Source of the DNA: Prevotella sp.
GTDB taxonomy: Bacteria > Bacteroidota > Bacteroidia > Bacteroidales > Bacteroidaceae
Assembly: GCA_017445845.1 (NCBI GenBank)
Contig: JAFSRY010000033.1
Coordinates: 53,021-117,020 of the forward strand
Direction of reading: 5' to 3'
Length of the DNA: 64,000 nucleotides
The translations under genes were made by a program, and so were the position numbers. Each line of letters begins with the position of its first letter. Positions within the stretch are counted from its first letter, which is position 1. This document shows positions 6,557-48,733 of the stretch, in pieces. The notes beneath the pieces were generated by a model. It searched no databases and was not told where the DNA came from. It was given only the letters and a program-made list of their open reading frames with translations.

Positions 6557-6666
6557 ACGCTTCTCAAAGAGGTAATACGCTTATCAGTGTGAGATAATCC
6601 GATGATCAGTGTGAGATAATCCTATTACCAGTGTGTGATAATCCTATTACCAGTGTGTGATAATAG
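6557..6666. repeat. Tandem 22-base repeat array A
   Basis: Four 22-base units at 6579, 6601, 6623 and 6645 share the core CAGTGTGWGATAATCC, with a decayed copy before them from about 6557. Units 3 and 4 are imperfect dyads (TATTACCA / TGATAATA). No open frame is supported. It occupies the middle of the 460-base gap (6323-6783) between two convergent genes; the rest of that gap holds only the terminator and sequence I cannot interpret. Confidence 0.85.
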
Positions 6667-6783
6667 CCGTTCCAAAGCCTGCAACAAATCTTGAAACTAA
6701 TAAGTCGTCGGTTCGTTTCATAAGTTGTTGGCTTATAATAACTTCGTGGGGCTTGACTAATTGATTTTAGAACTTAACCACAT

Positions 6784-22336: not shown

Positions 22337-22467
22337 GATAACCCTCTTAACAAGCATTGATAACCCTCTTAACAAGCATTGATAACCCTCTTAACAAGCA
22401 TTGATCATCCTCTTAACAAGCATTGATCATCCTCTTGACAAGCATTGGTCATCGTGTTATCAAAAAG
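22337..22467. repeat. Tandem 22-base repeat array B
   Basis: Five 22-base units start at 22337, 22359, 22381, 22403 and 22425; the first three are identical with core AACCCTCTTAACAAGCATT, the last two differ in three or four positions, and a sixth is decayed. The array sits in the 316-base gap between convergent gldB and the addB-like gene. The remaining sequence of that gap shows nothing recognisable. Confidence 0.9.
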
Positions 22468-31849: not shown

Positions 31850-32003
31850 CCGAAGGTATGTTTCGAGGGTGCCGAAGGTATGTTTCGAGGGTGCCGAAAG
31901 TGCTTTTCGAGGGTGTCGAAAGTATGTTTCGAGGGTGCCGAAGGTGCTTTTCGAGGGTGCCGAAAGTGTGTTTCGAGGGTGCCGAAGGTAAGAGTTGGCA
32001 GAG
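31850..32003. repeat. Tandem 22-base repeat array C
   Basis: Six intact 22-base units start at 31850, 31872, 31894, 31916, 31938 and 31960, followed by decayed copies. Consensus core is CCGAARGTATGTTTCGAGGG; each unit contains the dyad CGAAA/TTTCG. Neighbouring units alternate between GTATGTTTCG and GTGCTTTTCG. Both strands are open through it in part, but as a by-product of the period. It lies in the 470-base region between the tRNA terminator and the DUF5686 gene; the rest of that region holds a small CTTCATC/GATGAAG hairpin (about 32022-32038) and a promoter. Confidence 0.92.
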
Positions 32004-32192
32004 CCGAAAGGTAGCTTCTCCGTTCCTTCATCTAAGATGAAGCATCGGTATGACTTTGATGTGCCACATATTTCCTCATCGCTGTATGTATGTGAATACT
32101 TGCCATTGGCAGATAGAAATGGAGCAGAAGATTAAAAAAAACTCAAAAAGTCGTTTTATTGTTATAAAAAAATGTGCATTCGGAGCAATATT

Positions 32193-44494: not shown

Positions 44495-46120
<1,626 letters not shown>

Positions 46121-46243: not shown

Positions 46244-46334
46244 AAATGAGAAATGAGGAATGACGAATGAGAAATGAGTAATGGGTAATGAGTAATGAGG
46301 AATGAGTAATGAGAAATAAGGTATGAGGAATGAG
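46244..46334. repeat. Heptad array, 13 copies of NAATGAG
   Basis: Thirteen consecutive 7-base units in perfect register from 46244 to 46334, mainly AAATGAG, TAATGAG and GAATGAG with a few substitutions. It lies upstream of the ABC-F promoter. No coding potential is supported. Confidence 0.9.
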
Positions 46335-46522
46335 ATTATTTTTTTGGGGTGGTAGATTGGTAAGCCCACTCCAACTGGCAAATTTCCTAATCAGTTAGAT
46401 TGAGCCATGGAATTATTTTTGTTTAGATTTTTGCTCAAATTTAACACTTCCGAACTGTGGCAATGAGAAAAAATATGTAAGAAAACGAACAATTTGTCGG
46501 AGGTTCGGAATAATCGGGATAG

Positions 46523-46707
46523 CCGAATAGCAGGAAGCTGACCCTCGAAACAGCCTTTTTTAGGTCCCGAAAGTAAGTTTCGTGGGTGACGATTGGTAGC
46601 TTCGAGAGAGTAAAACAACTTGTTTTGCTTGATAAAATAGACTATTTTACTCGACAAAACAACTTGTTTTACTATGAGTATCTTAGTTATCGATAGTCAG
46701 CTTCCTG
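46523..46707. repeat. Composite 22-base array D flanked by an inverted repeat
   Basis: Units in one 22-base register begin at 46523, 46545, 46567, 46589, 46611, 46633 and 46655. The 46567 unit matches array C at 20 of 22 bases; the last three are different palindromic sequences (AAAACAACTTGTTTT, AAAATAGACTATTTT). CAGGAAGCTGAC at 46531-46542 recurs inverted at 46696-46707, bounding the block. The surrounding 46115-46870 gap also contains the heptad array, a GGTGGTAGATTGG copy near 46350, and the ABC-F promoter, but no gene. Confidence 0.8.
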
Positions 46708-46870
46708 TGTTTTGACATTGTGAATGGTTGTAAATGTCTGATAGTTAGCCTGTTGATGAAAAAGCGAATTTTATAGCCTTGTTTTCGGCCCAAAATCCTA
46801 TCGGATGAGACTTCTGACGCAAAATTTCATACCATTTGTCAGAAAAAATCTGAAAATTTAACACTTTCGC

Positions 46871-48733
46871 TTATAGGATGACTTTCTTTTGATTTACAAT
46901 GTAGACACCCTTTTGTTTGTGGTTTAAAACTTGAGGTCTGGGTCTTGACGTTTTGTATCCGTTGAGGGTGTAGATGTCATCGCTGCCATTCTTTCTTTCG
47001 TTGCTGGTGATGGGCTCGATGTCGGTTGTGATGTCAAAAGTGAGTTCTGCACTGTAGAGTGAGCCGCCAGTGCAGGGCTTGGCCTCTACGCGATAGGTGT
47101 AGTTGCCTCTTTTTGCGACCGTATCGGTGTAATTGTAAGTGGCCCGTTGTTCCTTGATGTCGAGTGTCGCAATGGTTTCCCATCGTGGTGTTTCGTCGTC
47201 GTTGTTTCTTCTTTGCAGGTTGATGGCATTGTTGTATTCACCGTTTTTGTCGTTCCAAATGAGGCGGACAATTCCTTTTTTTAAGTCACCTCCCCGGTTG
47301 CGGAAGTTTGAGGGTGCATACATTTTGGGTGTGTTGGGTATTTTTTCGTTCGCCTGATTGTAGGCCAAGCCTGGGTTCATCGTAGCGTAGTACTGTCCGA
47401 TGGGCGTCAGATATTGCTTTGATGCCAGCGAGGCATCGTCGCCATTGTGAAACTTATAGCAGCCCTCCCACAGGTTGAAAGGAGCATAGCGTTCGATGTA
47501 GTTGCATTCGGCAAGGAACTCAAGGATGGGGCGAAAACCGTCGAGTTCGGTCTGATAGTTCTGTGCATTCGCATCGCGGTTGCCGTTGGGCCATCCTGTC
47601 CATCCGGCCCCCCAGTTCATTTCTGTGATCCAGATAGGGCGACCGTTGCCGTAGTTGTTATGATATTCTCCGAGCAGCCATTCCCAATCCCATCGCGACG
47701 AATACCAGTAGGCATGAACGGCAACGAAGTCGCAGCGCCAGCCTCGTGCGTCGATGCTGTCCATAAACTCACTGAGCCATGCGGTGTTGCCGGCTACTGC
47801 TGGTGACCCGAGGCGTTTGCCCGTGGCCATCATCTCTGACCATGTGTCGAGTACCTCGGCTACAGTGGTGGGTATCTCGTTGGGGTCGTTGGTGTTGTCG
47901 GGTTCGTTGTTGCCAAGGGCATGGGGCGACGAGCCGTTGCGACCAACCTCATCAAACCCCGGCCACCACTTGTTGTGATGGTGGGTGACATATTCGGTAT
48001 CGGCCATTTTGGGGTTTCCGGCACCCCAGTCGTAGCACCATGTGGCGTTGAGGGCAGCATTGATGTCTGCCTGGCTACCGCCCCATCCCTGCTTGTTGAC
48101 ATCGTTCCACTTGAAGATGCGATAGGACGATATGCGGCCGGCAAGGATGTTGGGCAGCGTGATGCTGAGGTTCTGCCTATCGGCAACGTAGCATCTGCTG
48201 TAGCCTTGTCCGCGTTTCTGCGTAGCAAAGGTCACCATGTAGCCTCGGCGCAGGGTGAAACTCAGGGCACGGTTGTTGAGCTTTGCATCGGTGAGGTCGT
48301 TCATGAAGCCGTTGGCATTCTCCAATCCGAAGTCGCTGCATGACTCGCCCTGTTGCCGCCGTTCGGTGTATAGGGTGAGAGGCTTGACATCGTCGCCGTA
48401 GGGCAGGATGATACAGCCACGGTCGTAGATGCGCACCTGACAGTTCTTCCCGTTAACAGCTGCCTCGCCATTGATGAGGATACATGTTGACAAGGTACTG
48501 GCCGTGAGTTTAGAGGGTCTTACCTGATCGAGGATGACAACAGCATTGTCGGTGTTGACGATGTTCACCTGTCCGTTGGCACGGAAGGGTGTAGCCGACG
48601 TGATGTGATAGTCGACGGCAGTGGTCAGCGTGATGCCTTCTGTCAGCTGGTCCACCGTTTCCTTTTTGTTGGCAGCCCAAAGTGTGGCGGCTGTCCAGGC
48701 CATCAGCATGGCTAAGAGCAGTTTTCTTTTCAT
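46871..48733 (-). CDS. Secreted GH128-like beta-glucanase with sorting tail
   Basis: A 620-residue exported enzyme. A signal peptide (1-20) precedes an N-terminal beta-rich region (about 25-190). Residues about 205-450 match the GH128/Asl1 catalytic core: CYDWGAGNP, ALGNNEPDNTND with the probable acid/base Glu, FVAVHAYWYS and PIWITEMNWGAGW with the nucleophile Glu. Family members attack beta-1,3-glucans. A fibronectin-like domain (about 490-570) follows, and the last 40 residues (YTLNGYKTSRP...GVYIVNQKKVIL) form a type IX-style sorting tail. It is divergent from an AraC regulator, and its leader contains a terminator hairpin. Confidence 0.85.
   Translation of the reverse strand: MKRKLLLAMLMAWTAATLWAANKKETVDQLTEGITLTTAVDYHITSATPFRANGQVNIVNTDNAVVILDQVRPSKLTASTLSTCILINGEAAVNGKNCQVRIYDRGCIILPYGDDVKPLTLYTERRQQGESCSDFGLENANGFMNDLTDAKLNNRALSFTLRRGYMVTFATQKRGQGYSRCYVADRQNLSITLPNILAGRISSYRIFKWNDVNKQGWGGSQADINAALNATWCYDWGAGNPKMADTEYVTHHHNKWWPGFDEVGRNGSSPHALGNNEPDNTNDPNEIPTTVAEVLDTWSEMMATGKRLGSPAVAGNTAWLSEFMDSIDARGWRCDFVAVHAYWYSSRWDWEWLLGEYHNNYGNGRPIWITEMNWGAGWTGWPNGNRDANAQNYQTELDGFRPILEFLAECNYIERYAPFNLWEGCYKFHNGDDASLASKQYLTPIGQYYATMNPGLAYNQANEKIPNTPKMYAPSNFRNRGGDLKKGIVRLIWNDKNGEYNNAINLQRRNNDDETPRWETIATLDIKEQRATYNYTDTVAKRGNYTYRVEAKPCTGGSLYSAELTFDITTDIEPITSNERKNGSDDIYTLNGYKTSRPRPQVLNHKQKGVYIVNQKKVIL

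Follow-up and report, generated by a model that had tools for sequence, protein, structure and literature searches.

Palindromic arrays in 22-bp register are dispersed through a Prevotella genome and over-represented upstream of HU-HIG genes

The window analysed here is a 64,000-nucleotide stretch of DNA from a Prevotella assembly (G000; 2,457,347 bases, 103 contigs, 75.5% complete), corresponding to G000:C91:53021-117020. Array D occupies positions 46524-46692 of the window, in the gap between an ABC-F-like gene (44495-46114, minus strand; label from sequence) and a 620-codon gene (46871-48733, minus strand), and keeps an exact 22-bp register throughout: CGA...TCG units are followed by three perfect palindromes of 15 bp and then by a further outer unit. 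The features of this array and of three others in the window are:

46524-46545, plus strand: outermost left unit, decayed (CGAATAGCAGGAAGC with a 7-bp linker), in 22-bp register
46546-46611, plus strand: three CGA-type units in 22-bp steps (starts 46546, 46568, 46590)
46612-46626, no strand: core palindrome of the CAA type (AAAACAACTTGTTTT), perfect over 15 bp, 7 of 7 dyad pairs
46634-46648, no strand: core palindrome of the TAG type (AAAATAGACTATTTT), perfect over 15 bp, the core that precedes HU-HIG genes in five organisms
46656-46670, no strand: core palindrome of the CAA type (AAAACAACTTGTTTT), perfect over 15 bp, forming dyad pairs
46678-46692, minus strand: right outer unit GTATCTTAGTTATCG, in register; its reverse complement CGATAACTAAGATAC resembles the core-adjacent family consensus CGAt..TAAG..T.G
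46531-46548, plus strand: left arm of a bracketing inverted repeat, 18 nt long and pairing with 46690-46707 at 89%, including 12 consecutive bases without a mismatch
46690-46707, minus strand: right arm of the bracketing inverted repeat, partner of 46531-46548
46437-46448, minus strand: left flank motif AGTGTTAAATTT; AGTGTTAAWTTT occurs at 5 places in the assembly, 5 of 5 beside core arrays
46854-46865, minus strand: right flank motif AGTGTTAAATTT, in the same orientation as the left
31851-32041, plus strand: array C, CGA-type units and an in-register, unrelated perfect palindrome TTCATCTAAGATGAA at 32027
22337-22461, plus strand: array B, 22-bp units (GATAACCCTCTTAAC)
6571-6673, plus strand: array A, 22-bp units (GATAATCCTATTACC)

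The left units of array D vary in symmetry, with 0 of 7 dyad pairs at 46524, 3/7 at 46546, 6/7 at 46568, and 3/7 at 46590. A preliminary description of this DNA had claimed that the 22-base register is kept while the sequence switches, and both the unit positions and the dyad pairs confirm this. Its unit numbers are one base lower than those given here because its unit starts one base earlier, and the units that it listed are all present, but the in-register right unit had been overlooked. The inverted repeat that it placed around the block is also real, and its assessment of array D as the most unusual pattern in the window holds only in part, given that array C likewise closes with a different perfect palindrome that holds the register. 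The array D bracket also follows the 22-bp register in mirror image, as do 4 of the 6 inverted-repeat diagonals with a 10-base seed found across all 26 arrays of the genome. The motif pair of the bracket, AGGAAGCTGA/TCAGCTTCCT, is absent from the other 25 arrays, with only a lone half elsewhere, in locus L077; this locus also carries, at 1818-1911 near its core array, another 22-bp array (AGGAAGAAAGCAAAGATAACAC) whose units show no clear dyad.

The direct copies of AGTGTTAAATTT that flank array D may mark the border of a longer mobile element. Among the ABC-F orthologues found, the closest share approximately 82% identity over 287 bases, and in the eight ABC-F loci read, none from a close relative, the sequence differs throughout the gap and array D is present in none. 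As a separate observation, among 29 orthologous loci, 5 (L117, L119, L120, L127, and L130) carry 22-bp arrays of other sequence in the intergenic DNA preceding the ABC-F gene, with a common array in L120 and L127, whose two species are close. Repeats of 7, 14, and 21 bases of the AATGAG type are also found between the ABC-F gene and array D, at 46244-46335, and part of this stretch is 87% identical to sequence at C94:41344.

Beyond the window, the core sequence AAAAYARNYTRTTTT was found at 103 places in the 2.46 Mb assembly and its reversed control at none. These 103 cores lie in 28 loci, two of which (C37 and C62) were dropped as repeating the contig end of C8, leaving 26 arrays with 97 exact cores. 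All 71 neighbouring core pairs separated by no more than 200 bp are spaced at multiples of 22. Among CGW-N9-WCG units lying 15-180 bp from a core, 43 of 46 are in core phase and 3 are not, compared to 5 of 70 at 181-1500 bp, for a motif picked after viewing the arrays and with copies that are not independent. The in-phase outer units exclude unrelated insertions with coincidental phasing, which the preliminary description had named as the outcome that would refute its reading. The longer pattern CGA-N9-TCG-N7-CGA-N9-TCG occurs at 65 forward places in the assembly, and its reversed control at none. An outer CGW-N9-WCG unit is found within five steps on the left of 16 of the 26 arrays, on the right of 11, and on both sides of 6, while the core units number 1 to 5 per array, with five in 13 of 26 and never more. 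None of the arrays at 39 loci from three genomes (G000, G028, and G135) lies inside a kept ORF, a single G028 array overlapping an ORF end by two bases, and those in this genome sit in divergent, convergent, and codirectional gaps, as judged from simple ORF calls. In three loci at contig ends (L088, L091, and L080, at the ends of C81, C87, and C52), core arrays run into a common repeat of approximately 140 bases at nearly the same unit phase, and this repeat looks like an insertion sequence landing on core arrays.

The core pair itself is present in 3 of 200 same-genus genomes and in 1 of 119 genomes of the order, which is the genome studied here (the 118 others include one from the same family). 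It is also carried by 43 contig stretches from six Prevotella or Prevotellaceae MAGs. The 22-bp period reaches much further. Among tandem arrays of period 10-60 called by TRF in 80 stretches sampled from the genus (1,287,071 bp), 22 bp is the commonest period (47 of 183, in 27 of the 80 stretches), compared to 2 of 27 in 20 stretches (348,718 bp) from different genera in the order, 19 of them outside the family and one (G456) within it, a difference in density with p = 0.0008. A dyad at p<0.05 was detected in 13 of 41 consensus units of 22 letters versus 6 of 90 of other periods (Fisher 3.6e-4); the 41 are those of the 47 arrays that could be scored, six having other consensus lengths. Dyads of at least 6/7 at other-sequence places outside the arrays are also more frequent in register (5/503) than out of register (30/10,779; p = 0.019), a modest effect drawn from the 46 of 60 arrays across the genus with a clear dyad.

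The preliminary description had suggested a scan for further mixed arrays, and an in-register switch of sequence is indeed found not only at array C but also in L280, from another species, where the palindromes AATAGTGGCGCTATT, TAAAGTGGCACTTTT, TTCTAGAGTCTAGAA, and AAAAGCTCAGCTTTT share one register in the clearest mosaic case. A spacing constraint, as it had proposed, is therefore supported by the register kept between different palindromes at arrays D and C and in another species, and by 22 bp being the commonest period.

We compared the 389 ORFs that neighbour 69 core-array loci across organisms and obtained 29 cross-organism hits. HU-HIG (histone-like, PF18291) is the family that adjoins arrays in four organisms. 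In all five of its loci (L085 and L082, both in this genome, and L142, L175, and L160) the array lies 5' of the gene; L175 and L160 are not independent because they are 98% identical. No other neighbour gene among these 389 ORFs and 69 loci recurs in four organisms, so that the hint of the preliminary description toward HU-like proteins proved a good one. All three neighbour genes scanned against PF18291 pass its Pfam cut-off, and three of four scanned exceed the NCBIfam cut-off of TIGR01201 (HU_rel), with L082 falling below at 62.8 versus 68.6 bits. The proteins match HU and IHF of solved structure weakly. A small profile run over the collected stretches and loci adds two HU-HIG genes with upstream 22-bp arrays, L201 (120 and 230 bp) and L114 (183 bp). 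In a fifth organism, G028, four HU-HIG genes were retrieved; L349 has the TAG core upstream and the other three have none. The search for HU-HIG genes covered the core-bearing organisms other than RGIG4775 and SRR873596.

In the genome studied here, there are nine PF18291 matches, five of them strong. Upstream of the strong matches we found:

L308: four units AAATTCGCCGATTTT/AAAATCGCCGATTTT at -143 to -77 (TRF)
L310: a TAG core (TRF)
L311: AATAGATAATTTATT-like units (TRF)
L312: a four-unit array CAA/CGA/CGA/CAA (read by register, not TRF)
L309: no array

A TAG core thus lies upstream of one HU-HIG gene of this genome and a CAA core upstream of another, both genes (L310 and L312) having been found through their arrays. 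Near the four weak matches, TRF reports no 22-bp array. A HU-HIG neighbour is present at 2 of the 26 core arrays of this genome, and no HU-HIG gene adjoins array D.

Strong HU-HIG matches number 1 to 21 per genome in 70 of 80 sampled genomes. An array was counted when TRF gave a score of at least 40 and a period of 22 or 44 within 350 bp of the gene, and by this measure 20 of 50 sampled HU-HIG genes have an upstream array, the other 30 being without a TRF array. For the best HU-HIG match of each of 30 genomes, one gene per genome chosen without regard to arrays, an array was found upstream in 12 and downstream in 1 (p = 5e-4). The other 20 genes, of which 8 have an upstream array, were hand-picked, four because G028 has such arrays and the rest blind to arrays. 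Among background genes, upstream arrays were found for 19 of 810 and, when the count is restricted to the 284 genes preceded by 200 bp or more of open DNA, for 15 (p = 5e-10 versus 20/50). The 50 HU-HIG genes include six near-identical pairs, and merging these gives 18/44; the near-identical protein pairs L355/L356 and L358/L361 differ in whether an array is present. Arrays cluster in part of the HU-HIG family: they accompany 20 of the 29 genes that lack a YARA-like motif and 4 of the 26 that have one. This split was made post hoc, leaving out five array-selected loci, and its 55 genes include five of previously known array status (L308, L311, L201, and L114, and L309, which is without one); the tree of the family was read by tip order, without support values. 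Taken together, the units upstream of HU-HIG genes show no clear dyad symmetry, with 2 of 18 reaching p<0.05.

Units upstream of HU-HIG genes also recur in some dispersed arrays of the same genome. Two dispersed arrays of G132 match the unit upstream of the HU-HIG gene L366 at 21/22 positions, and one of G084 matches the unit upstream of L325 at 19/22. Cross-genome unit pairs reach at least 19 in 4 of 760 cases and at least 21 in none. The other 11 of 14 dispersed arrays have no same-genome match of at least 16 to the sample of HU-HIG genes taken per genome.

The over-representation of 22-bp arrays upstream of HU-HIG genes suggests that the HU-HIG proteins bind them. We consider it reasonably probable that these dispersed intergenic dyad arrays consist of putative binding sites for HU-HIG paralogs that have a common geometry but differ in sequence preference. 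Array D is one copy of a dispersed element made of dyad units of approximately 15 bp with linkers of approximately 7 bp, placed exactly 22 bp, or two turns, apart. Each unit would be bound by a dimer of a HU-HIG protein, of which these genomes hold several paralogs. If the paralogs keep the geometry of the dimer, and thus the 22-bp step, while their sequence preference differs, the register would therefore outlive the sequence, and a mixed array such as D, with its CAA, TAG, and CAA cores and CGA units, could hold sites for two paralogs. Where an array lies upstream of a HU-HIG gene, the protein may control its own gene, and the dispersed copies may serve as further sites. A more speculative extension, which we hold with less conviction, is that HU-HIG paralogs in Prevotella have evolved to recognise specific cognate dyad arrays, and that each has its own palindrome, sits behind its own array, and marks the dispersed arrays, and that mixed arrays seat paralogs side by side on one helix face, amounting to a length-coded, sequence-swappable chromatin code. 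Against binding by HU-HIG proteins, the promoters in question might be run by another protein, or the arrays might travel with the gene. The lack of a HU-HIG neighbour at array D and at most core arrays, the 30 sampled HU-HIG genes without a TRF array, the weak symmetry of the upstream units, and the few same-genome unit matches also weigh against it.

HU-type proteins are usually deemed to have little sequence selectivity, and Bacteroidota hold many divergent HU paralogs. Passages of PMC5683647 describe little sequence preference for canonical HU and cooperative HU binding in several species. For the HU-HIG family (PF18291, TIGR01201), we found no dedicated tandem arrays reported in the open literature searched, and nothing on 22-bp arrays in Prevotella. 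If HU-HIG proteins do own dedicated arrays, the multiplicity of paralogs would gain a function, and the unexplained minisatellites found across the genus would gain a cause. The targets would be readable from the DNA upstream of each HU-HIG gene, and the question is therefore directly testable.

It is also conceivable, if rather unlikely, that the arrays are non-autonomous mobile elements of the MITE or BIME type with no cellular role, whose blocks are copied whole and resized by whole units. The 26 dispersed, intergenic, non-coding copies are what such elements would leave. Moreover, the unit adjacent to the core follows one consensus, read toward the core, on both sides (left CGAT.gTAAG.aTCGgaAAAGT, right CGAtacTAAGaaTcGgaAAAGT), and the outer units share one position-specific consensus on the two sides of the core, in inverted order. 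All four linkers are common to 4 pairs of five-unit arrays versus 0.55 expected (p = 0.0028), and L070, L087, and the window array have flanks and AGTGTTAA motifs in common. The consensus in inverted order and the common linker series therefore indicate that blocks were copied with their sequence, and the confinement of AGTGTTAAWTTT to core arrays, together with the common linkers, that they were copied along with their flanks. There is thus no need to invoke a replication mechanism that reproduces length alone, as offered in the preliminary description. However, neither a terminal inverted repeat common to the arrays nor a target duplication came to light, the other 25 arrays lack the bracket seen at array D, and the Y1 transposase profile (PF01797) has no match in this assembly, at its 75.5% completeness. 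Mobility with no cellular role also leaves unexplained both the identical 22-bp period with unrelated palindromes in other species and the enrichment upstream of HU-HIG genes. As a route by which copies spread, it is compatible with binding by HU-HIG proteins, and the best explanation of the data is that the arrays, beside probably being bound by HU-HIG proteins, also spread as blocks in a MITE- or BIME-like manner.

Two known systems come closest in this respect. The BrickBuilt MITE of Porphyromonas gingivalis (PMC4596501) likewise belongs to a member of the Bacteroidota, is intergenic and dispersed (19 copies), carries flanking sequence, and encloses a spacerless tandem repeat of similar length. 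In contrast with the arrays here, that minisatellite has a step of 23 nt and not 22, one repeat sequence per family, and IS5-like terminal repeats, whereas our units change sequence in register and show no common terminal repeat that we could find. One BrickBuilt copy in Table 1 of that paper adjoins a PF00216 DNA-binding gene, which we note merely as a coincidence. BIMEs of REP units (PMC3733652) resemble the arrays in having palindromic units, fixed linkers, and intergenic mosaics, and the arrays here do consist of palindromic units in mosaic order with fixed spacing. REP units, by contrast, form longer hairpins tied to Y1 transposases, and the arrays here are strict 22-bp tandems. A RAYT/BIME origin was rejected, PF01797 having no matches in this 75.5% complete assembly or in 3 same-genus genomes.

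Several sites in a row at a 22-bp step are also a feature of the ends of phage Mu and Tn7, where they bind the transposase, are directional, and mark the ends of the element. Unlike those end sites, the cores described here are palindromic and central. A phage origin was likewise rejected, with 0 viral contigs carrying the core pair, and a CRISPR array was rejected on the grounds that the units are contiguous 22-mers whose 7-bp linkers recur and that there are no unique spacers.

We regard it as improbable that the arrays are neutral minisatellites, generated without selection by slippage and template switching in quasi-palindromes. Palindromic repeats are prone to such errors, and the variation in core unit number is in keeping with them, but neutral processes would not fix a 22-bp period across species nor put arrays in front of HU-HIG genes, and the ceiling of five core units, attained by half of the arrays, also speaks against them. 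Intrinsic curvature as a property common to the units was rejected too, with no excess over units shuffled internally (z = -1.1 in a wedge calculation); A/T harmonics of 11 and 5.5 bp (z = 1.9 and 3.5) are no more than suggestive.

Slightly less credible still is that the arrays act as RNA, in the form of hairpins, terminators, or attenuators. The four stretches folded do each form one long hairpin (z -3.5 to -6.7), and several G028 arrays lie close behind stop codons. However, the positions adjoining the dyad centre also pair, which is unnecessary for a loop, and the left and right arms of an array resemble each other no more closely than arms drawn from separate arrays (permutation p = 0.42, 0.38, and 0.49). 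Given this lack of covariation, coupling of the arms through a long hairpin was rejected, and the linkers hold one orientation and are not mirrored. The occurrence of arrays in every type of gap led us to reject a terminator role in this genome, and a known structured RNA was rejected given that the 3 Rfam matches in the window all lie away from the arrays, where no family reaches threshold.

Least probable of the readings weighed is that the units are sites of another dimeric regulator, of the helix-turn-helix kind, with HU-HIG genes among its targets. A 15-bp palindrome would fit many dimers of this kind, and HU-HIG genes may simply belong to the regulon of such a protein, but different palindromes precede different HU-HIG paralogs in one genome, so that several regulators of one spacing would be needed, and the lack of any other neighbour gene recurring in four organisms also argues against it.

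In a MAG from roe deer (JAFUSC; loci L154, L161, and L172), the linkers, GGATTCC on the left and GGAATCC on the right, are constant through the outer steps and the 15-mers vary, the reverse of the usual pattern.
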